Source of the DNA: Bordetella parapertussis
GTDB taxonomy: Bacteria > Pseudomonadota > Gammaproteobacteria > Burkholderiales > Burkholderiaceae_B
DNA: 57,622 nucleotides
Direction of reading: 5' to 3'
NCBI GenBank assembly: GCA_945887835.1
Contig: CAMCZQ010000004.1
Span: 1-57,622, forward strand
In this document: one piece after another, positions 6,771-45,485 of the stretch
How the letters are laid out: each line of letters starts with the position of its first letter
Position numbering within the stretch: the first letter of the stretch is position 1
The notes under the pieces: generated by a model
Database searches by the model: none
Told to the model about the DNA's origin: nothing
Seen by the model: the letters and a program-made list of their open reading frames with translations, nothing else
Position numbers and translations under genes: made by a program

Positions 6771-7028
6771 GATGTCTCGCTCCTGTATTTTTAAGTTCTA
6801 CTTTTTATTCATGTCACGTAATTATCGCTGCATTTGAGGCTTTGTCACCATCAAAACATTGACCACATGGCACCTCAGACTGAGACGCAGCCTCAGGCCG
6901 CTTTTTTAGATGAGGCTTTGGTAGACAACATTGAAGGGGACAAACTGCACAGCACAACATTACAAAACCGTAATGCCGCAACCCTCCTGTGCTCGTTAGA
7001 ATTCGTGCAGTTCATAGGGGTAACCGTT
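6771..7028 (+). other. leader region before the RND efflux operon
   Basis: This 258-bp gap separates the Bug gene from the preferred TTG 7029 start of the adaptor gene. The adaptor frame stays open upstream to 6834, but the added 65 residues precede a signal-anchor-like segment and look unlike any adaptor N terminus. A 7-bp stem (AGCCTCA at 6889-6895, TGAGGCT at 6911-6917) lies inside. It may hold the promoter and a 5' regulatory leader of the efflux operon, though no convincing -35/-10 pair stands out. Confidence 0.35.
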
Positions 7029-8222
7029 TTGACACGCTTCACAAACAGCAAGACAAAGAAACAAATCGCGTTAAGCTTAGTCGCGTTTGGTGTCGTGGCA
7101 CTGGCAGCTTGGTCACTCTTGCTACCAGGCAAAATAGCGCATTCACCCGCCCCAGCTGCCGCCACACAGCAGGCTCACGCCGAACTCTCGGGCAATATTC
7201 GGTTTGTTACGGGTGCAGCGCAGCTGTCCATGATTCAAACCCAAAGCTTGCCCCTCGTGCCAATCCCAATCGCAGAGCAGTTAAGCGCACGCGTGGCCTA
7301 CGATGAGGAAGTGACCGCGCGTATTGGCGTCAGCTTTACCGGTCGCATTACCGAGCTCAAAGCCGCACCTGGGGATGCGGTCAAAATTGGACAGGTCTTG
7401 GCGGTGATTGATTCACCCGACTTTGGCACAGCCTTTGCAGACCTGAACAAAGCGCGCGCTGACGAAAAGCGCAAACAGCTCTCGGTCAAACGCGCTAAAG
7501 ATTTGGTTCCCGGGGAGGCGATATCGACACGCGACTGGGAAGCCGTACAAGCCGAATTTGCACAGGCACAAGCAGAAACAGCGCGTGCAGAGCAGCGCAT
7601 AAAAAACTTAAATCCTCATGGCTTCAAAAGCTCTGGCCAACAAGTGATTCTCGCAAGCCCCGTTGCCGGGGTCGTCACCGAACGTACAGCAAGCCCCTCT
7701 CTTGAAATCAATCCCAATCTTTCTGCGCCACTATTCATCGTTACCGATCCTAAACGCCTTTGGGTCAGCATCGACTTGCCCGAAGCGCTTTTAAGCAAAG
7801 TCAAGTTGGGAAGCGAGGTGTCGATTCAGAGCGATGCCTATCCCGAAGAGATATTTAACGCAAAAATCATACAGCTTGGGCAGACGATCAATCCGAATAC
7901 ACGCCGTGCGAATGTTTTGGCGCGCGTCGACAACCCAGACGGCAAGCTACTTCCTGAAATGTTCGTGCACGCAGCCGTCTTGCAAACAAATGGTCAAGGA
8001 GTGCAAGTCCCTAACCGCGCATTACTGATTCGCGGTCTTTACACTTATGTTTTTGTCGAAAAAACGACGGGTGACTTTACCCTGCAAAAAGTTAAACCAC
8101 TTAAACGCGGGGTTGACGTTAGCTACATCGGCGAAGGCCTGCTCGGTGGCGAGCGCGTGGTAACCAAAGGCGCCCTACTTCTTGAGGCAGAGTTTTTAGC
8201 GAGCCTTGGCGAAAAACAATGA
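7029..8222 (+). CDS. RND efflux periplasmic adaptor (membrane fusion protein)
   Basis: This HlyD/CzcB/CusB-type adaptor bridges the inner-membrane RND pump and the outer-membrane channel. From TTG 7029 it reads MTRFTNSKTKK, then a single hydrophobic anchor, then a periplasmic body of about 397 residues in all. The barrel-sandwich half-motif GRITELKAAPGDAVKIGQVLAVI is near the front, followed by a helical hairpin rich in Ala, Glu and Lys (FADLNKARADEKRKQ to AEQRIKNL). The second half-motif follows (SPVAGVVTERTAS), then beta-barrel segments. TTG 7029 is preferred because AGGGG lies 8 bases upstream and it places the anchor at the N terminus; the earlier TTG at 6834 would add 65 residues. The stop overlaps the pump start as ATGA. 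Confidence 0.85.
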   Translation: MTRFTNSKTKKQIALSLVAFGVVALAAWSLLLPGKIAHSPAPAAATQQAHAELSGNIRFVTGAAQLSMIQTQSLPLVPIPIAEQLSARVAYDEEVTARIGVSFTGRITELKAAPGDAVKIGQVLAVIDSPDFGTAFADLNKARADEKRKQLSVKRAKDLVPGEAISTRDWEAVQAEFAQAQAETARAEQRIKNLNPHGFKSSGQQVILASPVAGVVTERTASPSLEINPNLSAPLFIVTDPKRLWVSIDLPEALLSKVKLGSEVSIQSDAYPEEIFNAKIIQLGQTINPNTRRANVLARVDNPDGKLLPEMFVHAAVLQTNGQGVQVPNRALLIRGLYTYVFVEKTTGDFTLQKVKPLKRGVDVSYIGEGLLGGERVVTKGALLLEAEFLASLGEKQ

Positions 8223-11200
8223 TCAATCGTTTGATTGTTTTTGCCCTCACGCAGCGTATGTTCGTGTTGTTGCTAGTCGCGGTCTTGATCGGTTTTGGCG
8301 GCTATGCGATCAATAACCTGCCGATCGAGGCGTTTCCCGACGTGCAAGACGTTCAGGTCAGAGTGATTTCGCAGATGTCTGGTCAGGCCCCCGAAGATAT
8401 CGAACGAACGATCTCTTTGCCCATCGAACGCGAGATGGCGGGCGTACCCAACTTAATCAACGTACGCTCTGTCAGCATGACGGGGCTCTCAATTGTCACC
8501 TTAACGTTTAGTGAAGGCACCAATAATTACTTTGCGCGTCAGCAGGTCACCGAAAAACTATCAACGGTCACTCTACCAGCGAGCGTTCAACCACAGCTTG
8601 CACCGCTTTCAACTGCAGTCGGCGAAGTCTATCGTTACACGATTGACGCGCCTGGCTTAAGCGACACTGAAATACGTACCCTGCAAGACTGGACGATTCG
8701 TCCCGCGTTGCGCATGACACCAGGCGTTGCAGATGTCGTGAGCTTTGGTGGCGCGATCAAAGAGTTTCATATCGAAATCGACCCGCTCATTTTACGCAAA
8801 TACCAAATTACCTTAAACCAACTCAGTCAGGCCGTGAGCAACGGCAATAGCAGCGCCGGTGGTGGCTTGATCAAACATGGCGACGCCTCGTTTGTCGTTC
8901 GCTCTGCGGGATTATTTTCTTCTTTAGACGATATTCGCCGAGTGGTCATTACCGCTCGCCAAGGCCAGCCCATTACCGTAGGAGACGTCGCGACCATCAA
9001 AGAAACCGAACGTCCGCGCTTTGGTATTGTCGCGTTTGATCAAAAAGACAGCATCGTTGAAGGAATTGTGTCGATGACAAAGGGCGGAAATCCTTCAAAG
9101 ATTAACGCAGCCCTCAAAGAAAAGATTATCGACCTGCAGCACAAACTTCCCGCCGGTGTAAAAATTATACCGATCTACGATCGCACCGAGCTTGTCACGC
9201 TCACCGTCAACACCGTTGTGCATAACTTAATCTTGGGCGCCTTACTAGTCTTCGCTGTACTGGTTATTTTTTTATCAAGTTGGCTCGCCGCGTTTGTTGT
9301 CGCCACCGTGATCCCCTTATCCTTGCTCTTCGCTTTCATTTTGATGAATGCTTTGGGTGTCTCGGCTAATCTCATCTCGTTAGGCGCAGTCGACTTTGGC
9401 ATCATCATCGATAGCGCAGTGGTGATTGTTGAGGCGCTGATGGTTCGTTTGACGCTAAGCTCCACCACAGGAGACCCAAGCTCAAAAGCTGCGATTTCTG
9501 AGCGTATGCATGCGGTACATCGAACGCTCTCTGAGATGTCGCGACCAGTGTTGTTTTCTAAAGCCATCATCATCCTGGCCTTTGTACCAATTTTTACCTT
9601 TCAACGCGTTGAAGGAAAAATCTTTACCCCGGTCGCACTCACGCTCACCTTTGCACTGATCGGCGCCGTTTTGTTGACCTTCACACTGCTGCCCACGTTA
9701 CTCGCCTACGTCGTACATAAAAAGCCTTTAATTGAAAAGCACAAACCCTGGCTCGATCGTCTGCAACAGCAATACAGGGCGATAGTGCTTTGGGTCATGG
9801 GCCATGCAAAAAAGGCGCTCTTGCTCTCAGTGATCCCTGTGGTCGTCGCTTTTGCTTTGGCGACCCGCATGGGCAGCGAGTTTATGCCTAAGCTTGACGA
9901 AGGCAATATTTGGTTGAGCATCACACTGCCTACCTCGTCATCGCTTGAAAATACCAAAGAGGTCGAACGCCTGGTGCGCGCGAAACTACTTGCCTATCCT
10001 GAAGTGTCACGCCTGATCTCGCACGTGGGCCGACCCGATGATGGTTCTGATCCAAAGGGCCCCAACAACCTCGAAAGTCTGGTGGATCTCAAACCCCGCG
10101 AACAGTGGCGGTTTGCGAACAAAGAGGCGCTCGTGAGCAGTATGGCAAAAGCACTCTCTTCGATACCGGGGATTACGACTAATTTTTCGCAAGTCATCCA
10201 AGATAACGTCGAAGAATCGCTCTCGGGATTTCGAGGTGAAATCGTTGCAAAAATCAGTGGACCAAACCTAGATATTCTTGAAGAAAAAGCCGCAGAGGTA
10301 GTAACGGTCATCGAGCATATCAGAGGCGCGACGGATGTCGAAGCCACCAAGCTCAGTGGTCAGTCTGAGGTCGTTGTGGTTCCCGACCGCGCCAAACTCG
10401 CGCGCTATGGCATCAGCATCAATGACGTCAGCACTTTGGTCACCCAGGCAATGTCTGGCGCCTCTGTGACAAGTTTTTATGATGGCGACAAACGCTTTGA
10501 TGTCGTCGTCAAGGTCGACCCAGAACATCGTAATAGTATTGATGCAATCGCTGCCTTGCAACTTGAAGTCCCTGGCACACAAGTGGGCAATGGCTCGGGC
10601 ACAGTGGCCTTGGGCGATGTTGCCTCGGTCGAGGTCAGGGAAGGCGCTTCGCGAATCTTGCGTGAAGCGGCCACCCGCATCGTCATCGTCAAAATGAATT
10701 TGCTCGGACGCGATCAAGGCACTTTTGTCGCTGAGGCGCAGGCTAAGGTACAGGATAAAGTCAAACTACCGCCGGGCTACGAGTTGACTTGGGGTGGTCA
10801 ATTTGAAAATTCTCAGCGTGCAACAAAACGTTTGACCGTCATTATTCCACTCACCATCCTGTTAATCTTTTCTTTACTGTTTTGGGCCTTTCGTTCGCTA
10901 CGGATGGCAAGCCTGGTCATTGGGATGCTGCCGTTCACCTTGATTGGCGGCCTTGCCGCGTTAGGTCTGGCCGGGCTGAACTTATCGGTCTCGGCTGCCG
11001 TCGGCTTTATTGCCGTCGCGGGGATTTCAGTTCAAAACAGCGTCATCATGGCCGAAGAAGTCCTGATGCGAAACAAACAAGGACAATCGACTGCTGAGGC
11101 GATCTTAGAAGGTGCTGTTTCTCGTTTGCGGCCAATTCTCATGACTGCCTTGATGGCCGGACTTGGTTTGTTGCCGGCGGCACTTTCTCAGGGGATTGGC

Positions 11201-33131: not shown

Positions 33132-33908
33132 ATGATGAAACGACAAAGCCCTTATCTCGTAGGCGAAACCGCAATCGTGACAGGTGCGGGTAATGGCATA
33201 GGAAAAGCGTTAGCCGTTGAGGTGGCGTCCGAAGGTGCAAACGTGTTTTTGGTAGATATTGATCCGCAAAAACTCAGCGACAGCGTGTCTGAACTCCAAG
33301 CCCTAGGCTACAAGGCCAAAGGGGCCGTCATCGATCTGGCGCTTTCTGGGGCTGCACAACTGGTCTTTGACCAAGCACAAACAGCGTTCGGTGCCTTGCA
33401 CATGGTGGTGCACTCGGCCTCGCCCCCCAGGCGCGAGACCGACACCTGGCGTACCGTCAGCAGCGACACTTGGGACGCGATGTATCACGTCAATGTGAAA
33501 TTCGGTTTTGAACTTGCCCGGCTAGTTGGCCAGCACATGATTGAAGAAAAAATCGCGGGACGCATGGTTTATTTAACCTCACTGCACGCCCATACCCCTC
33601 GCAACTTACCCCACTACGCCACCAGTAAGGCTGCGATGCTCATGCTGGTCAAAGAACTGGCAAAAACCTGGGCACGCCACGGCATCAGAATCAACGCCTT
33701 AACGCCTGGTGCAATTGCCGCGGGTGGTTTTAAACCCGCAGGTGATTTGGCCTTAAAAATTCCAATGCAAAAACTTGGCACTGCCCAAGACGTTGCAGCA
33801 ATGGGTTTGACCCTGTTAATTGATCGGTTTTCTGGCTATGTCACTGGCACAGAGTTGGTGGTAGACGGCGGACTCAGCGTCTTTAATTGGTTTGAGCCAG
33901 TTCAGTGA
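33132..33908 (+). CDS. short-chain dehydrogenase/reductase
   Basis: This classical SDR has about 258 residues. GAGNGIGKAL binds the cofactor, and D in FLVDID at the end of strand 2 favours NAD. Catalytic Ser is in LTSLHAH, and Tyr and Lys in YATSK. INALTPGAIAAGG and the C-terminal VTGTELVVDGGLSVF are typical. NNAG is changed to HSAS. ATG 33132 is preferred (ATG 33135 equally possible). The spermidine-synthase-like gene starts 10 bp after its stop, so they may be co-transcribed. Substrate unknown. Confidence 0.88.
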   Translation: MMKRQSPYLVGETAIVTGAGNGIGKALAVEVASEGANVFLVDIDPQKLSDSVSELQALGYKAKGAVIDLALSGAAQLVFDQAQTAFGALHMVVHSASPPRRETDTWRTVSSDTWDAMYHVNVKFGFELARLVGQHMIEEKIAGRMVYLTSLHAHTPRNLPHYATSKAAMLMLVKELAKTWARHGIRINALTPGAIAAGGFKPAGDLALKIPMQKLGTAQDVAAMGLTLLIDRFSGYVTGTELVVDGGLSVFNWFEPVQ

Positions 33909-33918
33909 GGTTTTTAAA

Positions 33919-35973
33919 ATGAACATTCATCTCAAAACCATTCTGCAGTACGCCCTGACAATTTTTTTAAGCGCCTTTTTACTTTTTCAGGTGCAACCGC
34001 TTATCGCAAAAATGATTCTGCCGTGGTTTGGCGGCTCGGCCTCAGTCTGGACCGCCTGCATGTTGTTTTTTCAAATGGTGTTACTGCTGGGCTACATCTA
34101 CTCGCATTGGGTCGTGCAGTATCTTTCTTCAGTGCGTCAAAGCTATTTGCATATTGCGTTGATCATTGTCAGCTTAATTTTCTTACCCATTCAACCTGGC
34201 CAAAGTTGGCAACCTACGGGCAGCGAAAATCCAACCTTACAGATTATTGGCTTGCTACTGGTCTCAATCGGGCTACCCTATTTTGTTCTGTCAACAACGG
34301 GGCCGTTACTACAGGCTTGGTTTGCCCGCGAAAAATCTGGCACCGTCCCCTATCGTCTGTTTGCCCTTTCAAATCTTGGCTCGCTACTGGCACTGCTCGC
34401 GTATCCGATTGCTGTTGAACCTTTCTTTAACTCAACGGTTCAATCGTATTTATGGTCAAGTTTGTATCTGATCTTTGGAGTCAGTTGCTCATTACTTGCC
34501 TGGCGAAACCGCAAGGCTGCGACGTTGGCAACACCTGATACTCAAGCGTTTGTTGCCGAATCAGCGGCCAAACTCAAAGGTAGTCATTACCTTTCGTGGC
34601 TCTTGCTTGCTGCCTGCCCCTCGATCTTAATGGTTGCCGACACAAGCTACCTAACCGAAAACGTCGCACCCATCCCCATGCTTTGGGTGATTCCGCTTGC
34701 GCTTTATCTGCTGTCATTCATTATCTGCTTTGAGCGCCCCCATTGGTATCAACGAAAGTTTTTTATCCCGCTATTTGTGGTCTCGTTGTTCGTTTTAGCG
34801 CTGCTACCGACACTTTCACACTCACTCATGCCTCTGATCGTCTTTATTGCAATCAATCTAACTGCCTTTTTTATTGTGTGTGTCGTTTGTCACGGAGAGC
34901 TCGCCAAACAACAACCTCATCCGAAGCACTTGACCATTTATTATTTGATGCTGGCGGTCGGTGGTTTAGTGGGAGGCCTGTTTGTTGGCGTCATCGCCCC
35001 CTACGCCTTCAATGGAAACTATGAATTTTCAGTTGGTGTCGTGTTGGCAGGCGTTGTCACGTTTGGCGTTCTGCGCCATCAGTTGTTGCCTCACCATCCG
35101 TACCGTTTGACCATTACCGCACTTTCGGTGGTTACGATCGCAGCCTTAGGTTACATCAGGTTCAATGATCATATGCAAGAGCTTGCAGGCGCCGATATCA
35201 AGGTCAGAAATTTTTACGGAACGATCAACGTTTTTACCAGAGCTGAGCAAAACCTTCGCTACATGGCGCATGGCATTGTCAATCACGGCGAACAGTCGCT
35301 TGACCCAGTCTTATCAAAAAAACCAACTGCCTATTATATTGAGGCAGCAGGCGCAGGAAAAGCCATCCTGTACAAAGCGAAACATTCAGACGCCATCAAA
35401 GTGGGGATTGTTGGACTAGGCGCAGGCACCTTGGCAACGTATGGACGTGATCAAGACACTTATATATTTTATGAAATTAATCCGCAAGTCGTTGAGCTTG
35501 CCGAAAAGAACTTCACTTATCTCAAAGATACCAAAGCCAAGACACAAATGATTTTGGGCGACGCGCGTATTCAGTTAGAGCGTGAGCCCGCTAACAAATT
35601 TGACGTGCTGATCATCGACGCTTTTTCTGGTGATTCAATCCCCGTGCATCTGTTAACGCTCGAAGCCTTTAAAGAGTACTTCAGGCATCTCAAGCCAGAC
35701 GGCATTCTTGCTGTGCACATCACTAACTGGTATTTCGATCTGGCCCCCGTCATTAAAATGGCAGCCGATCAACTAAAGAAAGACGCCCGCATTGTCTCGG
35801 TCGAAAGGGATAATGAAAAAAATATCCTCCGCTCACAGTGGGCGGTTATCAGCGCAGACGAGGCATTTTTCAAAAGCGAAGGCCTGAAAGACGAACTTCC
35901 GATCAAGTTAAATCGCTCTTTCAAAGCTTGGAAAGACGGCTACAGCAGCTTGTTCTCGGTTCTCAAAGAGTAG
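33919..35973 (+). CDS. polytopic membrane protein fused to a spermidine-synthase-like domain
   Basis: The protein has 684 residues. The first ~400 are a series of membrane helices starting LKTILQYALTIFLSAFLLFQVQPLIAKMILPWFGG, which is typical of the fused MFS/spermidine-synthase group. The C-terminal ~240 residues form a Rossmann methyltransferase-like fold. GIVGLGAGTLATYG binds decarboxylated SAM or SAM, FYEINPQVVELAEKNF supplies the acidic residue, and LIIDAFSGDSIPVHLLT matches the spermidine synthase core. Whether members make polyamines is unsettled. ATG 33919 has GAGG 8 bases upstream; an earlier in-frame codon lies inside the SDR gene. Confidence 0.88.
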   Translation: MNIHLKTILQYALTIFLSAFLLFQVQPLIAKMILPWFGGSASVWTACMLFFQMVLLLGYIYSHWVVQYLSSVRQSYLHIALIIVSLIFLPIQPGQSWQPTGSENPTLQIIGLLLVSIGLPYFVLSTTGPLLQAWFAREKSGTVPYRLFALSNLGSLLALLAYPIAVEPFFNSTVQSYLWSSLYLIFGVSCSLLAWRNRKAATLATPDTQAFVAESAAKLKGSHYLSWLLLAACPSILMVADTSYLTENVAPIPMLWVIPLALYLLSFIICFERPHWYQRKFFIPLFVVSLFVLALLPTLSHSLMPLIVFIAINLTAFFIVCVVCHGELAKQQPHPKHLTIYYLMLAVGGLVGGLFVGVIAPYAFNGNYEFSVGVVLAGVVTFGVLRHQLLPHHPYRLTITALSVVTIAALGYIRFNDHMQELAGADIKVRNFYGTINVFTRAEQNLRYMAHGIVNHGEQSLDPVLSKKPTAYYIEAAGAGKAILYKAKHSDAIKVGIVGLGAGTLATYGRDQDTYIFYEINPQVVELAEKNFTYLKDTKAKTQMILGDARIQLEREPANKFDVLIIDAFSGDSIPVHLLTLEAFKEYFRHLKPDGILAVHITNWYFDLAPVIKMAADQLKKDARIVSVERDNEKNILRSQWAVISADEAFFKSEGLKDELPIKLNRSFKAWKDGYSSLFSVLKE

Positions 35974-36019
35974 TAAGGTTTGCAAAAAACGGTTTAGTGT
36001 CTTTGGGGGGATGTCAACC

Positions 36020-36661
36020 ATGTGCAGCCACTACAAACCCGTCACCCAGATCAGCCAATTGCGCCGAACCTTTGGGCTTGGCCAGTTAGAGCAGCTCGGC
36101 AAGCCTGACATGTGGCCGGGCTACGAAGGGCTATTCATCCGCCCTCACCCGCACGCCGATGTGGGCGACGAGGCGGTACCCGCGCGTGAGGCACTCACTG
36201 GTCAGTGGGGCTTGATCCCTCATTGGTCTAAGGATGGCAAGGTCAAGGGTACTTTTAACGCACGCGGTGAAACCATTGCTGAAAAGCCGACGTTTCGCGA
36301 TGCCTGGAAAAAGGGCCAGCGCTGCATTATTCCAGCGCTGTCGGTATTTGAGCCTGATTGGCGCTCGGGCAAGGCCGTGGCAGCTGAAGTGTCGCGAGCT
36401 AATGGCGAACCAATGGGCATTGCGGGTATCTGGTCTGCGTGGCGCTCGCCTACTGGTTGGGTCGAGAGCTACACCATGCTCACAGTCAATGCAAATGATC
36501 ACGCAGTGTTTAAGTTACTACACAAGCCACAAGATGAAAAGCGCATGGTGGTGATCTTGAACCCTGACAGCTATGAGACTTGTCTGACAGGTTCACTGTC
36601 AGACATAACGCCGCTCATTAGGCAGTGTCCTGCTGAGGGTCTTCAGCTTCAAAGCCCTTAA
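36020..36661 (+). CDS. SRAP-domain protein (YedK/HMCES family)
   Basis: The protein has 213 residues. SRAP proteins shield abasic sites in single-stranded DNA by forming a covalent link through Cys2 after Met removal. This fixes the start at ATG 36020 (MCSHYKP); a codon three residues upstream would block that chemistry. The NARGETIAEKPTFRDAW segment carries the conserved Asn, Arg and Glu. LLHKPQDEKRMVVIL contains the catalytic His region. The loop usually seen as GFYEW reads VFEPDW here, a form I recall from phage- and plasmid-related members (unverified). It is near a cluster of defence-type genes. Confidence 0.92.
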   Translation: MCSHYKPVTQISQLRRTFGLGQLEQLGKPDMWPGYEGLFIRPHPHADVGDEAVPAREALTGQWGLIPHWSKDGKVKGTFNARGETIAEKPTFRDAWKKGQRCIIPALSVFEPDWRSGKAVAAEVSRANGEPMGIAGIWSAWRSPTGWVESYTMLTVNANDHAVFKLLHKPQDEKRMVVILNPDSYETCLTGSLSDITPLIRQCPAEGLQLQSP

Positions 36662-36755
36662 TGAGCGGTGCTCCCACACCACTGTCGCGGCCGAAAGTGG
36701 ATAGGCAAAAATAGAATAAATGACTACGTAGCCAATAAGAGTTTTTTACTCATTT

Positions 36756-37337
36756 TTAATCGAGTGTCCTTGGCTTGCCTAGCAGTCGCTTCAAATCTTC
36801 TGGGGCAGATGCGTAGACTCGTTGATTGTTCTCGATATCCTTTTTGTATTCGTCACCACCAACAACACAACCACGAGACATGACTTTGATGTTGTAGGTT
36901 CCTAATTCTTTCTGCAAATTATCAAAGTCACCATGGAACATCAGGCCGTGCACATACCACCGAGGTGAGCTCGTATTCTCAAAAAATGTTTTAAGCGGAG
37001 TAGCAAAATCGCTAAGCGCGATAGCCATCACCAAGGCACCGATCGGTAACACTGCAAAAAAACGTTTATTACGCAAAGCATCCACAGCCTTTATCGCAAA
37101 CGCTTTAGGCATCGCGTGTATGAAGCACCAAAGCTTATACACTTTAGAATTTTTCAATGACTGCGACTCGGCATGATTGTGAAAGACCAGAGCGGGCAGC
37201 CACTCGCCTCGCTCAGTGATGATTTGTTCAATCGCTTGCAAAGCATACGGATTTAAGTCTGGGCTATTTGCTCGTCTTGCAAGCAGATAAGCCGACTCAG
37301 TATTGTTAAAGCGCTCTTTAAAGTAGGCTAGATTCAT
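36756..37337 (-). CDS. hypothetical protein with one membrane segment
   Basis: The protein has 193 residues and no family I recognise. The N-terminal half is soluble and helical (MNLAYFKERFNNTESAYLLA). One hydrophobic stretch (FFAVLPIGALVMAIALSDFA) lies near 93-112. The C-terminal part is soluble with a GGDEYKKDIE segment, which is not a GGDEF domain. It starts 3 bp after the WYL regulator stop, so the two are almost surely co-transcribed and may be functionally linked. Confidence 0.7.
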   Translation of the reverse strand: MNLAYFKERFNNTESAYLLARRANSPDLNPYALQAIEQIITERGEWLPALVFHNHAESQSLKNSKVYKLWCFIHAMPKAFAIKAVDALRNKRFFAVLPIGALVMAIALSDFATPLKTFFENTSSPRWYVHGLMFHGDFDNLQKELGTYNIKVMSRGCVVGGDEYKKDIENNQRVYASAPEDLKRLLGKPRTLD

Positions 37338-37340
37338 TGA

Positions 37341-38312
37341 TTAATACAGCTTCAAAATTTTCTGCACCGTCTCTTTGACTTTCTTCTTAAGAGCTGCCGG
37401 CGCTAACACTTCGACATCAGGCCCTTGGCGTAGGATGTCTTGAATCAGCTCCCAATCTTCACCATAGGGCACTTCAAGTGTGTAGCTACCATCAGCGTGC
37501 ACTTCACCAACTTGCTCGGGATGCCAGACTTCGCGTGCAACCCACTGGGCTCTGAACGGGGTGAACTTTAGTTTGGCGACTTGGCGATTTTTACCTGAAA
37601 AGATGCCGTAGCTGGTTTCGAACATTTCGCGCAACTCTGCCTCGGCCACATTCTTTGCGGCTTTATCGACCAGTTGAACGCCGTTCAGCGCATCCAAGGC
37701 AAAGCTGCGCAAACCTTCACGCAGATGGCAGTAACCATCCATATACCAATTGTCGCGGTAATAGACCAAGCGCTGGGGCGACACTTGCCGCTCGGTTGTC
37801 TGCCCCGTTTGACGCGCAAAGTGTTTGATGTCGAGCCGTTTACGTTGAACTAAGGCGTGGGCAATCACTTGAAAGTAGTCGCCAGAGACTTGGCGTTGTG
37901 CCATCGGCAAGATGCGAATCCGATTCATGGCTTCTTTAGAGCTGCCGATACCTTCGTCTAACAAGCCTTCAAGGCGGGCTTTAAACGGCGCCACATGCGG
38001 TAACAGCAAGCCGCCGGGTTCGAGCTTTGAAATTAACTCGATCATTGTCAGTAGCGAATGGATCTCTTGTTGGTTGAACCAAACGCCGGGCAACTCAAAG
38101 GTTTTACCGTCTGTTGGTTGACGCGTCATGGCATAGCCGCGTAGCGTGGCATCCCAGGCAAAGGGGATATGAAGCCGATCGCGCATATAGGCCAAATCAC
38201 GATTTAAGGTGGCGCGAGACACCTCGAGCGCTTCTTGCATCTGCTTCATTGTGACCGAAGGTTTGGCCATCAGCATGGCTTGAATCTTATAGAAGCGTTC
38301 GGTGCGATCCAT
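37341..38312 (-). CDS. WYL-domain transcriptional regulator
   Basis: The protein has 323 residues. A DeoR-like helix-turn-helix spans about residues 18-45 (MKQMQEALEVSRATLNRDLAYMRDRL). A WYL-type sensor domain follows, with the hallmark region RLVYYRDNWYMDGYCHLREGLRSFALD. A C-terminal extension resembles the WCX region (REVWHPEQVGEV, LQDILRQGPDVEVLAP). WYL proteins often sense nucleic-acid ligands and control phage-defence genes, as described for BrxR and CapW. ATG 38312 is chosen over a codon 8 residues earlier. The small membrane protein follows after 3 bp. Confidence 0.9.
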   Translation of the reverse strand: MDRTERFYKIQAMLMAKPSVTMKQMQEALEVSRATLNRDLAYMRDRLHIPFAWDATLRGYAMTRQPTDGKTFELPGVWFNQQEIHSLLTMIELISKLEPGGLLLPHVAPFKARLEGLLDEGIGSSKEAMNRIRILPMAQRQVSGDYFQVIAHALVQRKRLDIKHFARQTGQTTERQVSPQRLVYYRDNWYMDGYCHLREGLRSFALDALNGVQLVDKAAKNVAEAELREMFETSYGIFSGKNRQVAKLKFTPFRAQWVAREVWHPEQVGEVHADGSYTLEVPYGEDWELIQDILRQGPDVEVLAPAALKKKVKETVQKILKLY

Positions 38313-38407
38313 TATTTTTATCCGCCAATCATGCAACTGAGTGCAAGTGTTGAACCAATGATAGTTAACTTTTTGACAAATATGGGCGAACCTTTGGGTG
38401 TTTATTG

Positions 38408-38875
38408 TTAATTAAGCGTCACAGGCTGCGACTCGCGGCGAAAGGCTGCGCGGTAGTCACGACAGGCACTCACGATAAACTCAGCTGCCGAGGCCAAGGT
38501 TCTAGTGTACTCAGCGACATCCGCGCAGTGAGTTTCGTAGGTCAGCCAGACAGTGTTATTGCCATTCACCACAGCCTTAACGCAGCGGCGGTCTGCGTTG
38601 ATTTCGTTTGCTACGTTTAAAGCGCTAGTTCGATCGGCGGGGTCTAGCTCCCAGTAAACACAGCAGTAAAGACGAAAACCGCCTTGGCTTTGATACGGAT
38701 CGACATAGAGCTTCCAGCCTTCGCACTTAAACCCGATTGAGCCGTCGTTATCTAGCTTGGGGCGAAAACCCTCGTCAGTCAGATGATTCAGAATTTGCTG
38801 CAGATTGACGTCAACTTCAACTTTTGGGGTGGGTAAAGCGATGGTTGCACTCTCAGTGCTTGGGGCGTCTGACAT
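38408..38875 (-). CDS. YbjN-domain protein
   Basis: The protein has 155 residues with a YbjN-like core (LQQILNHLTDEGFRPKLDNDGSIGFKCEGWKLYV, then FRLYCCVYW and NEINADRR). YbjN proteins share a fold with type III secretion chaperones and are linked to stress and motility regulation, without a known biochemical role. It lies 95 bp upstream of the WYL gene on the same strand and divergent from the NERD-helicase gene. Confidence 0.75.
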   Translation of the reverse strand: MSDAPSTESATIALPTPKVEVDVNLQQILNHLTDEGFRPKLDNDGSIGFKCEGWKLYVDPYQSQGGFRLYCCVYWELDPADRTSALNVANEINADRRCVKAVVNGNNTVWLTYETHCADVAEYTRTLASAAEFIVSACRDYRAAFRRESQPVTLN

Positions 38876-39051: not shown

Positions 39052-40683
39052 ATGGCTAACTTAGTCCCCGACCTGTTTAAGCCCAAGTACAGCACCGGCA
39101 TCGAGCGCGAGCTTGATGTTTTGTATCGTCTTGAGGCGTCGTTGCCCGACGGCTATGAAATCTTTCATAGCGTGTCGTGGCATTCACTGCATAACGACTA
39201 CGACAAACACGGTGAGATTGATATTGTGGTGCTCTCGCCCATCGGTAACGTCTTGCTTGTTGAGGTCAAAGCCGGCGACGTTTCGATCACCGATGGCCAA
39301 ATCACTAAGGTCTATCGCGATGGGCCCAGTGATGTGGGGAGACAGACCAGGATTCAGTTTGCGGCGGTGATCAGTCGGCTGTCGAACGCGGGCTTGCACA
39401 CCCATGTCACAAACTGCCTTGTGCTACCCGACTACGTTGTCGGTGATCAACACATCATCACGATACCGCCTGAACGTATTATTGATGCAACGCGTTTTGA
39501 CCAGTTAGGCTCACTTGTCAGGGACATGCTGACTCATGACCAACCAGCCACCGATATTGAACGTATTCGTAAATTCTTTTGTAATCAATTTAACGTCACG
39601 CTAGACATGCGCGTCTTGGGCGAGCAGGTGCGCACCGCGACCCTACGCTTGGCTGATGGCCTAGCCACCTGGGTGCCACGCATCACAGCCCCTTCAGGCG
39701 TCATCAGAATACAAGCCACAGCCGGCTCAGGTAAAACGCAGCTTGCGCTTAAATTATTAGAAGACGCCTCAACAAAGTCTTTCAAAAGCTTATACGTTTG
39801 CTACAACCGAAGCCTCGCCGATCACATTGGGCATATTGCATCAGCCAGAGCTAAGGTCGCGAGTTTTCATGAACTGTGCGTTGAGTATTATCGGCAAACC
39901 GTAGGCGAGCCTGATTTTGCGGCACCCAACAACTACGATCGCTTAAGCCAACACTATTGCGAGGCGATAGAGGCGAACCTAAATTTGCAACAACGCTATC
40001 AACTCATCATTTTAGATGAGGCGCAAGACTTTCAACCCGAATGGGTGGCGGCGTTATTGCCCCAGCTAACCGATGACGGCAAGATCTATCTGCTTGAGGA
40101 TGATGCACAGCGACTCTATAAACGTGAAGAGTTTGATCTAACGGGTGTAGTGACCGTTACCTGCCAAGATAACTTTCGAACTCCTGGCGCGATTTGCCAT
40201 GTCATTAACGCGCTGGGGTTAACTGAACAGCCTGTGGTGTCTCGCTCTTTCTACCGCGGCGAATCACCTAATTTTTATACTTACAACAATGATCAAGAGC
40301 TGTTGCGTGAAACCGAGACCGCAGTCAAGCAGCTGCTCAAGCGAGGCATTGCCCTCAAGGATATTGCGATCATTAGTTGGCGTGGCTTAGCCGGTTCGGT
40401 CTTAATTAGGACACCGCAGCTGGGTGAATTCACGCTACGACGCCCTACTGGCAGGTATTCAGCCGCTGGTGATGCGCTATGGACTGAAGGTGCGCTACTA
40501 ACGGATTCTGTCTATCGCTTTAAAGGCCAAAGCGTAGCGGGTATTGTGCTCACTGAAGTTGACTTTGAAGCCTTTGACGACAAAGCGCGGCGTCAACTGT
40601 TTGTGGGTTTGACGCGCGCGCAACTGGCTGTTGAAGTTGTGTTGACTCAACAAGCTGCCAGTTGCTTAAGCTCAATTCTGTGA
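39052..40683 (+). CDS. NERD-domain nuclease fused to SF1 helicase
   Basis: The protein has 543 residues. The N-terminal NERD domain (about 15-130) has a PD-(D/E)xK-like core: E55 and D57 in HGEIDIVVL, and E71 and K73 in LLVEVKAG. A superfamily 1 helicase follows: Walker A QATAGSGKT near 221-229, Walker B LIILDEAQD near 318-326, and motif VI LFVGLTRAQ near 516-524. Such proteins are thought to process DNA and occur in mobile and defence loci. The UvrD-like C-terminal region is compact compared with true UvrD. No strong ribosome site precedes ATG 39052. It lies divergent from the YbjN-WYL operon. Confidence 0.88.
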   Translation: MANLVPDLFKPKYSTGIERELDVLYRLEASLPDGYEIFHSVSWHSLHNDYDKHGEIDIVVLSPIGNVLLVEVKAGDVSITDGQITKVYRDGPSDVGRQTRIQFAAVISRLSNAGLHTHVTNCLVLPDYVVGDQHIITIPPERIIDATRFDQLGSLVRDMLTHDQPATDIERIRKFFCNQFNVTLDMRVLGEQVRTATLRLADGLATWVPRITAPSGVIRIQATAGSGKTQLALKLLEDASTKSFKSLYVCYNRSLADHIGHIASARAKVASFHELCVEYYRQTVGEPDFAAPNNYDRLSQHYCEAIEANLNLQQRYQLIILDEAQDFQPEWVAALLPQLTDDGKIYLLEDDAQRLYKREEFDLTGVVTVTCQDNFRTPGAICHVINALGLTEQPVVSRSFYRGESPNFYTYNNDQELLRETETAVKQLLKRGIALKDIAIISWRGLAGSVLIRTPQLGEFTLRRPTGRYSAAGDALWTEGALLTDSVYRFKGQSVAGIVLTEVDFEAFDDKARRQLFVGLTRAQLAVEVVLTQQAASCLSSIL

Positions 40684-40817: not shown

Positions 40818-42131
40818 TCAACCTGCTGCTGATATCAGTTTTGTGGCGTCCTCAAGAGCGCGCTGTTCGAATGCAGATTTAAAGTCTAAACACTCAGCTT
40901 GCTTCAGCCCAACTTCTGGCGTAACGGCTACAGCCTTCCATTGCCTGACAGCTTCGACCACCTCACTGAGAATTGCGTTTGCTGCCGCTGGTGTCAACTC
41001 GAAGCGAGTTGCCTGCTGTAGCAGTTGCTTTACCGACGTGATCGGACCAGTGTCCTCGCTCAGCCATGTTTTTGACTCAGGTTCTTTATCTGGAAACGGA
41101 TTCAGATCAAAGGCGGGTGCGAGACGCCATTGATTATTGTTGGCATATAAAAAACCAATGTTTTGCAAATGATCATCAACGTTAGTAATCAAATGGTTAA
41201 AGACCAAGCGACGCCACAGCTGTTTGGCATCTGCGATAAAGTCTTTGCAATGCGAGCGCATCAAATCGAGTATCTCGGTGTATGAGTGCTCGTCATCACG
41301 CTTAGCTTGCAATAGCGTGGCACCCGAAATATACGGGATACGACCTTGCTCAGGTGTTCGATCAAAGCGCCGAATGATTGCAACGGGTTGCTCTTGCACC
41401 AGCACAATTCGCGCTAAGGCGCTATCGATTCCCGCTAGGGTTGCCAAACGAAGTGCTAAGACCTCACCGCGCGTGACACAACGTTCATCGCTCACGCTCG
41501 GAAATTTACCTAGACACAGTGCACTGTCTGTATCGAGTACGGTGCACTTAGGCCGCATGCCACCAAGCGACGTACCCTTACCTTGTAGATATTTAAGATC
41601 GGCTGCGGTCTCTTGACTGAGCTCAACCGCTCGCGATGCTAGTAGTATTTTTTCAAGTTCTAGCAATACGGGTGTTGTATGGCCATCGGCTTCAGCACCG
41701 CGCAGATATTGGCCTGCTTCGTTTCGCAGTCGAAGGGCACCAACACGACTGTAATCATCTACCGCAGTGAGATAGTCAATTTCTGATAACGCAGCAAGTG
41801 AGGCGTCAGTCGCTCGGGCTTTTGCGTGCGCGCGCGCGATCACGCGTCGACCCCAAGCATCGGGCTCAGAGTCTGCTAAGGCGAGAAAAAAACATGAGTC
41901 ATCTTTGCTTGGTGGTTTTCGTAGTTGATGCCCTACCTGGCGCCGCAAATCAGGCGAAATATCAAAGCACAGTGGATTCGTTAACCATTGCTCACTGTAA
42001 GTAAATTGAGAGAACTCTCGGGGGCCATTTTTAGCGTAAATCAGGCGACCGAGCGGCGGCTCAACACGGCCCAAGCAAACCTCAAGACTCGTGCGACGCG
42101 TAACCGGTTTAAAGGTTGTTTTCGTTGCCAC
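40818..42131 (-). CDS. hipA: HipA-family serine/threonine kinase toxin
   Basis: The protein has 437 residues. HipA kinases phosphorylate targets such as glutamyl-tRNA synthetase and induce dormancy. Key motifs are GTSLGGMRPK at about 186-195 (phosphate loop), FNHLITNVDDHLQN near 311-324 (catalytic Asp and Asn), and APAFDLNPFP near 338-347 (metal-binding Asp). The start is GTG 42131, and its G is shared with the TAG stop of the upstream hipB-like gene. The antitoxin gene lies directly upstream in the standard hipBA order. The target is not readable. Confidence 0.92.
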   Translation of the reverse strand: MATKTTFKPVTRRTSLEVCLGRVEPPLGRLIYAKNGPREFSQFTYSEQWLTNPLCFDISPDLRRQVGHQLRKPPSKDDSCFFLALADSEPDAWGRRVIARAHAKARATDASLAALSEIDYLTAVDDYSRVGALRLRNEAGQYLRGAEADGHTTPVLLELEKILLASRAVELSQETAADLKYLQGKGTSLGGMRPKCTVLDTDSALCLGKFPSVSDERCVTRGEVLALRLATLAGIDSALARIVLVQEQPVAIIRRFDRTPEQGRIPYISGATLLQAKRDDEHSYTEILDLMRSHCKDFIADAKQLWRRLVFNHLITNVDDHLQNIGFLYANNNQWRLAPAFDLNPFPDKEPESKTWLSEDTGPITSVKQLLQQATRFELTPAAANAILSEVVEAVRQWKAVAVTPEVGLKQAECLDFKSAFEQRALEDATKLISAAG

Positions 42132-42457
42132 TAGAACGCACCCGTTTCAGCGGTAGTTTTTGACTTGCGAATGCGTTGCGGCAGTTTTTCATCCATCATA
42201 ATTAAACCGATCGAGTCGTTTGCGGTGTCGAGAAGCTGATCAAGCTTATCGAGCTCACCAAAGACTTGTAGGGCTCGGACTAGATGTTGAAGTGCACTGC
42301 CAGGGTGCCCCGACTCTAGACGGCGAACCGTATTGATTGACGTGCCGATGCGCTCTGCAAGATCTTGTTGCGACAAATTACGCCGGCGCCGAGCGAGTGA
42401 TAGGGCCAAACCTAAACGGTCTAAGCTGCGTGCGGCTGGCAATGGGATATCAGACAT
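42131..42457 (-). CDS. hipB: HipB-like XRE antitoxin
   Basis: This XRE DNA-binding protein has 108 residues with helix-turn-helix LSQQDLAERIGTSINTVRRLESG at about 28-50. In hipBA modules HipB binds and inhibits HipA and represses the operon. Order and one-base overlap with the HipA gene support this. The C-terminal tail (QRIRKSKTTAETGAF) extends beyond the fold and could touch the toxin. Its upstream region is extremely AT-rich and carries a 17-bp near-perfect palindrome. Confidence 0.88.
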   Translation of the reverse strand: MSDIPLPAARSLDRLGLALSLARRRRNLSQQDLAERIGTSINTVRRLESGHPGSALQHLVRALQVFGELDKLDQLLDTANDSIGLIMMDEKLPQRIRKSKTTAETGAF

Positions 42458-42500: not shown

Positions 42501-42676
42501 GTCTATATATATAACTTTAAATTAATCATATCTTACTTAATTTTCAATTTATTTGTCAACATTTTTACTATAACATTCAAAATATAAACTTTTAAATTAT
42601 ATAAATATCAATTTTTGAATACTTTGTTAGTTATTTTACTAAAAAATCTTATCTTAACGACTCCTCCCTCGCCTGT

Positions 42677-42722
42677 CTCACCCCCTGAGGCACCTACCCC
42701 TCTATTGTCCAGTCAAATCCAC
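42677..42722 (+). repeat. C-rich dispersed element, copy 1
   Basis: CTCACCCCCTGAG (42677-42689) is followed by CCTACCCCT (42693-42701), 11 bases, then TCAAATCCAC (42713-42722). The same three blocks, the last two with identical 11-base spacing, recur at 52682-52758 before the SprT-like gene. TCA-CCCCC-TGA can form a hairpin. Confidence 0.7.
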
Positions 42723-42740
42723 TTATTTTTATTAATACAG

Positions 42741-42768
42741 TTGATTTATACAGTTTAAGTGTTATTAT
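42741..42768 (+). promoter_or_regulatory. possible promoter of the MerR-vWA operon
   Basis: TTGATT (42741-42746) and TATTAT (42763-42768) are 16 bases apart. The expected transcript start would fall at or very near ATG 42775, which has no ribosome-binding site upstream, so the message may be leaderless. Confidence 0.35.
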
Positions 42769-42774
42769 GAACAT

Positions 42775-43209
42775 ATGAACACTGTCAATCACACCCAAAC
42801 GTTCTCGCTTGACGAGCTCTGTACCCTCACCGACCTCACCAAACGCACGGTTCGCTACTACGTCCAAATCGGGCTAGTGAGCCGGCCTGAAGGTGAAACG
42901 CGGGCAGCAAAGTACTCGTCACAGCATCTTGAACAACTTTTGCTTGTCAAAAAATGGACAGCAGCCGGGGTATCGCTTGACCGTATTCGTGAACTGCTTC
43001 AAGGCGGCTCAGCGCCAGTACCTGAGCGAGGGCGCGTGCCTGGGTCAATCGAAGTCTGCAGCCATTTGCATGTGGCGCAGGGCGTTGAGCTTGTGATTGA
43101 ACCGACCCGCGCCGGGTTAACCCCCGAGCAATTGCGTCACTTTGTTCGAGCCGTGATGAGCGCCTACGAACAGATCAACCAAGACAGCACAACAAAGGCA
43201 AACCAATGA
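42775..43209 (+). CDS. MerR-family regulator
   Basis: The protein has 144 residues. The winged helix-turn-helix covers about residues 9-80 (FSLDELCTLTDLTKRTVRYYVQIGLVSRP, then HLEQLLLVKKWTAAGVSLDRIRELL). The C-terminal region has no obvious Cys metal site. The last ~30 residues (LTPEQLRHFVRAVMSAYEQI) are helical. The stop overlaps the vWA gene start as ATGA, so the regulator and the vWA protein are made together. This suggests control of, or physical coupling to, the vWA protein. Confidence 0.88.
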   Translation: MNTVNHTQTFSLDELCTLTDLTKRTVRYYVQIGLVSRPEGETRAAKYSSQHLEQLLLVKKWTAAGVSLDRIRELLQGGSAPVPERGRVPGSIEVCSHLHVAQGVELVIEPTRAGLTPEQLRHFVRAVMSAYEQINQDSTTKANQ

Positions 43210-45485
43210 GCGAAATTATCGAATTCGACGGCCCACAGGCCACCCTACGTAATGGCCAAGGCGATCCACTGATCCTAAAAGACGTCTCCATCACGGGCGA
43301 ACTGCGTGGTGCAATGTTTGAAGCACACGTGCGCCAAACGTTTAGCAACCCTACGGAGACTCACGCTGAAGTCGTGTACAGCTTTCCGCTGCCCTGGGGC
43401 GCAACATTGTTAGGTGTTGAAGTTCAGCTTGGCCAAGTCAAACTAACCGGTACTGTGGTTGCCAAAGCCGAAGCTGAAGAACAATATGAAGAGACCCTTT
43501 CAAAGGGCGATGCTGCCATCATGCTCGAGCGTGGCAACGATGGTAATTATGTTTTGCATCTGGGTAACTTGGCGCCTGGTGAAGACTGTGTGATCGACAT
43601 GCACTATGGCCAGTTGTTGCAGTTTGAACAGGGCGGCCTACGCTTGGCCATTCCAACCGTCATCGCCCCACGTTATGGCGATGCGGTTCGCGAGGGTGGC
43701 TTAGCACCCTATCAAGTCCCAGAAACAGACCTGTTGGCAGAGTATGGGTTTAGCTTGACGCTAAATTTGCATGGCGATCTGGTCAACGCGCGCATTGCTT
43801 CACCAAGTCACCCTATTAGTATGGCCAACCACGCAGCCGATCACATGTTGACCGTGGCCCTCGTCCAACAAAGCTATTTAGATCGTGACTTCATTCTTGT
43901 ACTTGATCAACTCGCCCAATGTTCAGTTGCCACCCTAGCGCCCGACTACGTCGATGCAAAAACCTTTGTCGCCACCGCCAGCTTTAGCCCAAGCATTCCC
44001 AACGCCAAAGCACAAAATACCGCGATCAAGATTTTGGTTGACTGTTCTGGCTCGATGGCGGGCGGCAGCATCCAAGCTGCACGACGCGCCTTGATGGCCA
44101 TTGTTAAAAAATTCAACACCGGCGACAAGTTCTCGCTCTCTAAGTTTGGCTCATCGGTTGAACACCGCTCGCTTTCTCTTTGGACAGCCTCTGAGCAATC
44201 ACGCTTAGGTGCAGAAAAATGGATCGCCGAACTAAATGCCGACATGGGTGGTACTGACATGCTAGAGGCCATCGAAAGTACCTTTGAGTTGGCGCATAGC
44301 AGCCCTTGCGATGTCTTGCTAATTACCGATGGTCAGATCTACGGTATTGACGCCGTCATCGGACAAGCTAAAGCTTCAAAGCATCGCGTGTTTACCGTGG
44401 GCATTGGAAGTAGCCCAAGCGACAACCTGTTACGTCGCCTTGCGGTTGAAACCAATGGGGCCTGTGATTTTGTAGCTGAAGGCGAAACCGTTGAACCTGC
44501 AATCGTGCGTATGTTCAATCGCTTGCGTTCGCCGGCTGTGACCAAGGTCTCAGTTCAGTGGCCCGAAGGCTTTACCCCTAAGCTCTTGACTACAATAGAC
44601 AGCACGGCGTTTGATGGTGACACCCTGCACGCGTCGGCTTGGTTTCATACAAAGCCAACTGGTCGGATCACGCTGTTGGGTCAGTTAGTTGGCCAAGACA
44701 CTGTGCAAGAGCTTGGCCGTGTAGAAATCAACGAAACACCCGCAACTTCGACGGCCTTGTCACGCTTGGCAGCCGCTGGGAAAATGCAACATTTGGCGGG
44801 TGCAGCCGAGGCGACTAAGCTTGCGCTTGATTACCAATTGGTCACAGAGCACTCCAACTTTTTAATGCTGCATGAGCGCAGCGCAGAAGACAAAGCACCT
44901 AATATGCCTGAGCTGCACAAGGTCAAGCAAATGCTGCCGGCGGGCTGGGGTGGCGCTGGCCTGGATCAAGTGCATTACATGAGAAACTCAGTGAGTTTGT
45001 CGTGCGATGAGTCGATCTCAGACATATTCTCATCGCCCACCGTCATGCGCAGTCGAGGCGTACGTTCACCACAAGTGGAAGCCCTTGACATATCCGGGAT
45101 GGATCATTACGGCATCCCAGCTTTCTTAAGACGACAGGTTGACCCAGTGCCCACAATCGGCGCTGTCGGTGACCGGATCACGATCAAAGCAGATCGCATC
45201 TGGTTTAAGTTAGATGCCGCCCAAAAAACAATCTTTGCGCTACTCACGCCTAACCCTAAGGCCATTGGTGCGAGGATCTGGTTTGTCAATAAAACGCACG
45301 AAGTCTTTGACTACATGGACTTCGTCAGCTTAGAAGACGCCGTAAACGAGTTGCAGCTAAACGGTTTTAGCGATTACGTTAAGAAAAGGTTTTCTCTACT
45401 GAATCGAACTCGTACGCGCTACACCTGGAAATGTGAAGACCACACACGGGTCTACACAAACTCAACCACTTGGGTAAAAACATAG
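43206..45485 (+). CDS. VIT and von Willebrand factor A domain protein
   Basis: The protein has 759 residues. Residues 1-135 form a VIT domain (LKDVSITGELRGAMFEAHVRQTF, then YSFPLPWGATL), as in inter-alpha-trypsin inhibitor heavy chains. A vWA domain spans about 270-440 with a complete MIDAS metal site: D279, S281, S283 (DCSGSM), T350 and D375 (LLITDGQ). The remaining ~320 residues are not recognisable. No signal peptide is seen, so it is probably cytoplasmic, unlike eukaryotic relatives. The ATGA overlap with the MerR gene implies joint function. MIDAS proteins bind partner proteins; the partner here is unknown. Confidence 0.88.
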   Translation: MSEIIEFDGPQATLRNGQGDPLILKDVSITGELRGAMFEAHVRQTFSNPTETHAEVVYSFPLPWGATLLGVEVQLGQVKLTGTVVAKAEAEEQYEETLSKGDAAIMLERGNDGNYVLHLGNLAPGEDCVIDMHYGQLLQFEQGGLRLAIPTVIAPRYGDAVREGGLAPYQVPETDLLAEYGFSLTLNLHGDLVNARIASPSHPISMANHAADHMLTVALVQQSYLDRDFILVLDQLAQCSVATLAPDYVDAKTFVATASFSPSIPNAKAQNTAIKILVDCSGSMAGGSIQAARRALMAIVKKFNTGDKFSLSKFGSSVEHRSLSLWTASEQSRLGAEKWIAELNADMGGTDMLEAIESTFELAHSSPCDVLLITDGQIYGIDAVIGQAKASKHRVFTVGIGSSPSDNLLRRLAVETNGACDFVAEGETVEPAIVRMFNRLRSPAVTKVSVQWPEGFTPKLLTTIDSTAFDGDTLHASAWFHTKPTGRITLLGQLVGQDTVQELGRVEINETPATSTALSRLAAAGKMQHLAGAAEATKLALDYQLVTEHSNFLMLHERSAEDKAPNMPELHKVKQMLPAGWGGAGLDQVHYMRNSVSLSCDESISDIFSSPTVMRSRGVRSPQVEALDISGMDHYGIPAFLRRQVDPVPTIGAVGDRITIKADRIWFKLDAAQKTIFALLTPNPKAIGARIWFVNKTHEVFDYMDFVSLEDAVNELQLNGFSDYVKKRFSLLNRTRTRYTWKCEDHTRVYTNSTTWVKT

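Follow-up and report, generated by a model that had tools for sequence, protein, structure and literature searches.

A MerR-paired VIT-vWA protein of Bordetella parapertussis carries a copy of its host's FtsZ C-terminal tail

We analyzed a stretch of 57,622 nucleotides from Bordetella parapertussis (hereafter, the window), in which a gene for a MerR-family regulator is followed directly by a gene for a protein with a VIT domain and a vWA domain (Table 1). The original prediction, made from the nucleotide letters, stated that the two open reading frames (ORFs) overlap as ATGA, that the vWA domain retains a full metal ion-dependent adhesion site (MIDAS) and that the protein lacks a signal peptide, and these three statements were confirmed. 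We found that an arm of the VIT-vWA protein carries a copy of the C-terminal tail of FtsZ, matched to the FtsZ of its own host. This copy is the strongest new evidence obtained here, and it points to the cell-division hub, a connection absent from the original prediction. The two-component conflict or stress system suggested there as a possibility is conceivable.

The first gene product begins with a winged helix-turn-helix (HTH) domain (Pfam MerR_1, PF13411; E = 5.7e-17; 62 bits against a cut-off of 21.6). The NCBIfam models listed for known MerR ligand classes (CueR, ZntR, SoxR, MerR and others) all scored far under their cut-offs (for example, 36.6 against 147.4 for CueR), and a metal- or redox-sensing regulator was rejected on this ground. 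In the second product, Pfam placed VIT (E = 1.8e-21) before VWA_3 (E = 3.9e-19), both above the cut-off. The five MIDAS residues listed in Table 1 were invariant across an alignment of 19 rows, and a loose regular expression recovered all three MIDAS motif elements in 44 of the 47 subfamily proteins. The expression was incomplete in the MerR-paired proteins L161 (genome G1349), L156 (G1136) and L166 (G1237).

No hydrophobic segment was found in the window protein, in which the maximum 19-residue hydropathy was 1.14 (0.62 within the first 60 residues); with neither a signal peptide nor a membrane anchor, a secreted or adhesin-like protein was rejected. In contrast, 18 of 22 unpaired VIT-vWA proteins that served as controls (a fragment, L107, was left out, and G058 (L020) was counted as a control) had a 19-residue stretch above 1.6 within their last 70 residues. 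The window protein also fell outside the marine proteobacterial sortase target family (TIGR03788), with 236.8 bits against a cut-off of 551.65. Alignment and AlphaFold2 modelling delimited a conserved, folded VIT-vWA body up to about residue 570, followed by an arm predicted to be disordered. The nearest Protein Data Bank (PDB) fold to the body model was inter-alpha-inhibitor heavy chain 1 (6fpy; Foldseek E = 6.5e-33). This chain and the TIGR03788 proteins likewise have VIT, then vWA with a MIDAS; the window protein differs from them in having no signal peptide or anchor, and in its MerR partner and FtsZ tail copy.

The C-terminal domain, modelled alone as a 111-residue stretch, reached a mean predicted local distance difference test (pLDDT) score of 78.9. 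It had no Pfam match, and its best PDB match (E = 0.23) was of no use for deducing a function from the fold. The statement in the original prediction that about 320 C-terminal residues match nothing therefore holds for residues 656–745; it does not hold up to about residue 570, which belongs to the VIT-vWA body, or for residues 608–647, which match the FtsZ tail. Lineages without this type A domain carry an unrelated C-terminal sequence that looks helical by eye, which indicates that the domain is exchangeable. A stand-alone protein of 118 amino acids in genome G010 (L151:748–1104) shares 29% identity with the C-terminal domain of the window protein.

Table 1. Features of the MerR/VIT-vWA pair, in window coordinates
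Feature	Coordinates	Strand	Remarks
Imperfect inverted repeat CTCA-N5-TGAG, 5' of merR	42676..42690		both 4-base arms in 11/11 aligned loci; possible operator
Putative sigma-70-like promoter, read by eye	42741..42768	+	TTGATT (42741–42746), 16 bp, TATTAT (42763–42768)
MerR-family regulator, 144 aa	42775..43209	+	HTH and conserved C-terminal part outside known ligand classes
VIT-vWA protein, 759 aa, without signal peptide or membrane segment	43206..45485	+	start overlaps MerR stop (ATGA)
VIT domain, residues 24–134	43275..43607	+	Pfam PF08487
vWA domain, residues 274–420, complete MIDAS D279, S281, S283, T350, D375	44025..44465	+	Pfam PF13768 and alignment
Arm predicted to be disordered, residues 571–653	44916..45164	+	pLDDT <50
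FtsZ-like box 1, residues 608–618, FSSPTVMRSRG	45027..45059	+	copies host FtsZ linker box APTVMRGRG
FtsZ-like box 2, residues 632–647, MDHYGIPAFLRRQVDP	45099..45146	+	copies FtsZ conserved C-terminal peptide MEHYDIPAFLRRQAD
Type A C-terminal domain, residues 656–745, mixed beta/alpha	45171..45440	+	no Pfam/PDB match

In a protein search, residues 608–651 of the window arm matched the C-terminal end of FtsZ from the same genome with E = 4.5e-9 (arm, SSPTVMRSRGVRSPQVEALDISGMDHYGIPAFLRRQVD; FtsZ end, SAPTVMRGRGSNAQAQVRALETSGMEHYDIPAFLRRQAD), and the matched ORF was identified as FtsZ by NCBIfam TIGR00065 (E = 1.1e-113). For 36 of the 37 family genomes searched, arm residues from about 608 to 650 aligned to the final residues of an approximately 400-residue ORF, with a stop codon right after the match. 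Within residues 608–647, PTVMRxRG corresponds to the linker box and DHYGIPAFLRRQ to the conserved tail peptide; the I/V/L-P-A-F-L-R core is present, and I637 and L641 are the equivalents of I374 and L378 of Escherichia coli FtsZ. The arm thus resembles the linker end and C-terminal peptide of FtsZ in both boxes, in its predicted disorder and in its host-specific letters. However, the boxes lie, mostly internally, in a VIT-vWA protein for which Pfam and NCBIfam gave no match to a tubulin/FtsZ GTPase domain, beyond a weak one (E = 0.047) to an FtsZ C-terminal-extension model.

When the window genome was scanned for DNA encoding IPAFLR, exactly two sites were found, namely, ftsZ and the VIT-vWA gene; at least one site occurred in 57 of 61 genomes, and a control scan read backward gave 0–3 sites per genome. 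Compared with the host's own FtsZ tail, the VIT-vWA tails of all 19 same-genus genomes scored 12.6 to 40.6 standard deviations over shuffled sequences. The strict motif was present in 28 of the 47 subfamily proteins and in none of the 22 unpaired, mostly anchored VIT-vWA proteins, and all 18 motif matches among 103,881 ORF residues from 21 loci fell in subfamily VIT-vWA proteins. Three further proteins (L108, L193 and L194) carry the motif outside the 47. Some members have a second copy at the very C-terminus, as in FtsZ: a Massilia plasmid protein (L115/L159) ends in DIPAFLRRRAD, and that of G1349 (L161) ends in DIPAFLRKQAD. In a quick tree, eight changes were needed to explain the distribution of the tail copy, of which at least five were forced by the starred branches; the tree has long branches on which the placements of G359, G351, G1354 and G1105 are unsure, and it leaves a single origin of the copy undecided.

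Many FtsZ linkers (L041–L059, L117–L125 and L172–L189) contain a conserved P-x-V-x-R box approximately 25 residues before the tail peptide, and many VIT-vWA arms copy this box as well. Our analysis thereby draws attention to this linker box as a further conserved element of FtsZ besides the tail peptide; because the arms copy it too, it may be a separate binding site.

The copy follows the FtsZ of its own host, down to linker letters that are specific to a lineage. Within the genus, we grouped the FtsZ tails into five kinds (PTVMRGRG; PSVLRNPR with DLN or DMN; PSVIRN with DYG; PSLLRNPR with DMG or DLG; and others), and the VIT-vWA arm of each clade was nearest to its own kind. The pairing of arms with FtsZ tails of their own clade ranked first among 120 clade permutations, also when the linker part was taken without the core peptide; kinship among genomes was handled solely by this permutation. 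When each arm was compared with 29 FtsZ tails, the host's own clade came first for 18 of the 19 same-genus proteins and second for that of G031. Outside the genus, the host's own FtsZ ranked first for G1146, G1222, G1275 (tied with that of G1349) and G359, and also for G879 at a weak z of 3.4. The arm and FtsZ of G1146 (DMPTIMRTGRQRDAVEAMKQTGSGTLDVPSFLRKQAD and DMPAVIRTGRHREAVEAMKQSGVETLDIPSFLRKQAD) have 32 of 42 residues in common; the corresponding sequences in G1349 are QPAVWRRESAAGQVQAMLRNGVEDYERPAFLRR and QPAVWRREQASEQVQAMQRNGVETYDIPAFLRK, and in G359 the same 14-mer, DDLGYLDIPAFLRR, occurs in both proteins.

To distinguish copying of DNA from selection on the peptide, we counted identical codons at residues shared by arm and FtsZ. 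The observed numbers were close to those expected from codon usage: 7 of 26 in the window (expected 10.1), 13 of 32 in G1146 (13.4) and 17 of 34 in G017 (14.6). Among 15 hosts, the count was over expectation in eight and under it in seven (a tally without a formal test), so that recent gene conversion with ftsZ was unsupported overall. The ratio of nonsynonymous to synonymous polymorphism (pN/pS) in the window clade was 0.35 for box 1 and 0.30 for box 2, compared with 0.67, 0.80 and 0.71 for the flanking stretches. Codons near expectation together with low pN/pS in the boxes indicate that the peptide, more than the DNA, is kept matched, and suggest that the likeness is maintained by selection on the peptide and not by recent gene conversion. 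These values also bear on the idea of a single past capture of an ftsZ fragment that now has no function, with the likeness being a leftover or due to chance. The patchiness of the motif, which can be absent in close relatives, would fit such an origin; however, the boxes are under purifying selection and follow the host FtsZ despite codon drift, the motif matches in the 21 loci were confined to subfamily proteins, and extra copies occur at true C-termini. We regard this explanation as very improbable.

The pair itself is recurrent. A MerR gene lay directly upstream of the VIT-vWA gene in 46 of 46 loci compared, with a 4-base ATGA or GTGA overlap in 26. These loci are preselected subfamily members, 45 of them distinct, as L115 and L159 are apparently one Massilia plasmid locus; the contig-edge loci L004/L037, L007/L036 and L019, at which the upstream gene cannot show, were left out, and L084, which has a MerR match, lies outside the list. 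Besides the window genome, 18 of 31 same-genus relatives had the VIT-vWA gene. A family-wide search recovered the MerR protein at E ≤ 1e-25 in 18 of 268 genomes, belonging to 2 of 43 genera, and across the order the VIT-vWA profile matched at E ≤ 1e-90 in 19 of 399 genomes, including that of the window, with a MerR gene in all 18 new ones. In a draw from the phylum, the profile reached E ≤ 1e-60 in only 4 of 398 genomes, the window genome included, which indicates that few genomes beyond its own group carry the pair. Among seven further loci of the G359 lineage, five (from four genomes, including G359) had a MerR match; the two without were L194 and L197, the latter of which resembles the anchored type. 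On a Piscinibacter plasmid with a weaker MerR-like match (29% identity), no annotated VIT-vWA gene adjoined. The original prediction would have been undone by a chance neighbourhood absent from other genomes; instead, many genera share the pair, which also occurs on two plasmids, one from Massilia and one from Aquabacterium, and on a contig from IMG/VR (L108).

The FtsZ tail is a switchboard of bacterial division. In E. coli, the available part of one study (PMC4117426) describes that the tail (DYLDIPAFLRKQAD) is bound by ZipA, FtsA, MinC, ZapD, ClpX and SlmA, that I374 and L378 are critical residues, and that a 14-residue tail peptide alone is sufficient for binding to SlmA and competes with FtsZ. 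We found FtsA and ZipA domains in all 15 motif-bearing genomes examined, one of which (G1354) has a looser motif. The window assembly (G000) contains two strong FtsA matches (E of about 2e-39), on contigs C137 and C100, which may reflect redundancy or contamination (estimated at 4.69%).

In our proposal, the two genes would form a unit under MerR regulation, with the product of the second gene mimicking the C-terminal tail of the host FtsZ. The VIT-vWA body, with its intact MIDAS, would act as a folded platform, from which a disordered arm of approximately 80 residues would present the two FtsZ-derived boxes, that is, the linker end and the conserved tail peptide. The tail copy would dock on the receptors to which FtsZ is bound through its tail; of these, FtsA and/or ZipA, which tether FtsZ to the membrane, are the most likely. 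The platform, together with the exchangeable C-terminal domain, would thereby be placed at the division site. Alternatively, the VIT-vWA protein might act at this site as a competitor of FtsZ, and division would then be restrained upon induction of the operon by MerR. On the basis of sequence comparison, we consider that the VIT-vWA protein probably docks on FtsZ-tail receptors. SlmA, MinC, ZipA and FtsA also act through the FtsZ tail; however, these proteins bind the tail, whereas the VIT-vWA protein carries a copy of it and would bind them. Docking would give a first function to the MerR-paired group of bacterial VIT-vWA proteins, and, if the proposal is true, a replica kept host-matched by selection, in a protein with its own regulator, would represent a novel means of controlling or guarding division.

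Several observations weigh against this proposal. The strict motif was absent in 19 of the 47 proteins. For three of these (G614, G632 and G1120), the available sequence stops before the tail is reached, and they were nevertheless kept among the 47; in one more (G1354), the motif is looser, FEIPDFLRKQAE. The remaining motif-less proteins have a tail without the motif, which means that the family must have functions beyond docking on FtsZ receptors. Presence also varies inside one family, since in the G359 lineage L192–L194 have the motif and L195 and L198 do not. The window copy itself has G where FtsZ has D (HYGIPAFL versus HYDIPAFL). Host matching was imperfect outside the genus: the host's own FtsZ ranked second for G1133 and G1349, third for G1170 and G635 and fifth for G1354 and G1272, and G351 was a clear exception, with LDIPAFLR in the arm, SIPTFLRRQSD at the end of its FtsZ and an own rank of 29 of 29. 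For approximately a dozen further members, the likeness to FtsZ tails was not above that of shuffled sequences. Codon sharing with ftsZ exceeded expectation in G1349 (21 of 26 versus 16.0) and G359 (10 of 15 versus 6.7), where some later copying from ftsZ is possible. The motif-bearing L194 (G1392) had no MerR match within 1.5 kb beside it, which makes the link between MerR and VIT-vWA genes strong, not absolute; the ORF just upstream of L194 on the same strand (264 amino acids) is presumably an enoyl-CoA hydratase. Finally, single tail peptides bind weakly, at 20–81 µM, according to the available part of the E. coli study (PMC4117426). Such affinity favours recruitment, or clustering of the VIT-vWA protein, and inhibition by competition would need a high dose or clustering.

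The main rival to receptor docking is that the arm would serve as a degron or adaptor read by ClpX as FtsZ is, leading to turnover together with FtsZ or to competition for its proteolysis by ClpXP. According to the available part of PMC3983244, ClpXP recognizes E. coli FtsZ at two sites, of which the first lies in the linker, approximately 30 residues ahead of the C-terminus, and the second at the tail; the VIT-vWA arm copies two regions at a similar spacing. However, the copy is internal in most motif-bearing members and thus has no free C-terminus, a general degron need not follow the letters of the host linker so closely, and by eye box 1 is little like the E. coli linker site QEQKPVAKVV; ClpXP targeting is accordingly unlikely in our estimation. 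The arm might instead act on FtsZ itself, binding its globular core in place of the FtsZ tail and tuning polymerization. The Bacillus subtilis FtsZ tail is reported as autoinhibitory, binding its own core, in the available part of PMC12747378, whereas the tail-peptide partners listed for E. coli in that of PMC4117426 are other proteins, and we hold action on the core to be improbable.

The rival next to ClpXP targeting concerns defence. Plant immune receptors include those with integrated decoys. By analogy, the tail copy could be bait for a foreign attacker of the FtsZ tail or its receptors, the capture of which would switch the C-terminal domain or MerR. This would fit host tracking by selection on the peptide, the exchangeable C-terminal domains, the occurrence on plasmids and the defence-type neighbours in the window (NERD+UvrD, WYL and HipA). 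On the other hand, nothing indicates a trigger or an effector activity. PADLOC had no model for the VIT-vWA protein and matched MerR to mad1 only weakly, through the HTH (E = 5.5e-7), so that a known anti-phage defence system was rejected. No match was found in 50,697 phage records, which left a phage origin of the pair unsupported; in the IMG/VR locus L108, eight scanned neighbours included a restriction-modification system, a DNA methylase and an HD-domain gene, and none had a phage-specific Pfam family. No gene besides the pair was common to all 21 loci compared, and an obligatory third gene was rejected. Taken as a separate explanation, the decoy appears quite unlikely. A combined form, in which a MerR-controlled integrated decoy at the division hub uses the FtsZ-tail replica to occupy receptors or to bait their attackers and responds through the exchangeable C-terminal domain, is doubtful but conceivable.

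With regard to regulation, the region 5' of merR was mostly conserved among 11 aligned loci, with a block TACAGT...TACAGT...AGTGTTATTAT that lies six bases ahead of the ATG. Single-base departures occurred in some of the 11 rows, most of them in L016, in which the TATTAT hexamer also differs. In the window, the end of TATTAT is 6 nucleotides from the merR ATG, and it is plausible that the merR transcript is leaderless, with a predicted start at or adjoining the ATG. The conserved block fits a putative leaderless message and a putative MerR-type operator, and we infer that MerR controls the operon.

Known systems resemble the pair in part. FtsZl1-vWA operons also tie a vWA protein to an FtsZ theme, but in the available part of their description (PMC2875224) an FtsZ-like gene adjoins vWA genes and MerR is unmentioned, whereas here the peptide copies a true FtsZ tail. 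The vWA-centred conflict systems (PMC7159879) share a vWA protein with exchangeable domains; a whole-word search of the main text of that paper found neither VIT nor MerR, and the nine upstream window ORFs scanned contained no MoxR-type ATPase. In a full-text literature search, whose scope left out most subscription papers and all bioRxiv preprints, neither a paper on a bacterial MerR/VIT-vWA pair nor a protein carrying an FtsZ tail copy appeared among the matches listed, as judged by title and start of abstract. If the reading as an integrated decoy at the division hub is true, the VIT-vWA protein would be, within the literature searched, the first described to keep a co-evolving imitation of the FtsZ tail of its own cell.

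Several genes of the window lie upstream of the pair. Positions 40818–42457 encode a HipA-like kinase and an HTH partner, divergent from the pair; hipBA was seen in the window and in L033, hipB (the HTH gene) alone in L136, and neither there in L032, L035 or L135. Positions 39052–40683 encode a nuclease-related domain (NERD) and a UvrD-like helicase (PADLOC NERD+UvrD, E = 5.1e-21), which also occur upstream of the pair in L032, L035, L132, L135 and L136 and partially in L033. An SOS-response-associated peptidase (SRAP), a WYL/WCX regulator and a YbjN-like gene occupy positions 36011–38875, and these three gene clusters are also found upstream of the pair in another clade (L129 and L130). The 693-residue ORF at 33892–35973 had a weak PADLOC mad2 match (E = 1.9e-11) and a sub-threshold match to spermine synthase. 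In L033, an opposite-strand ORF of 1293 amino acids (5449–9330) separates the pair from the downstream gene that adjoins the pair in other relatives.

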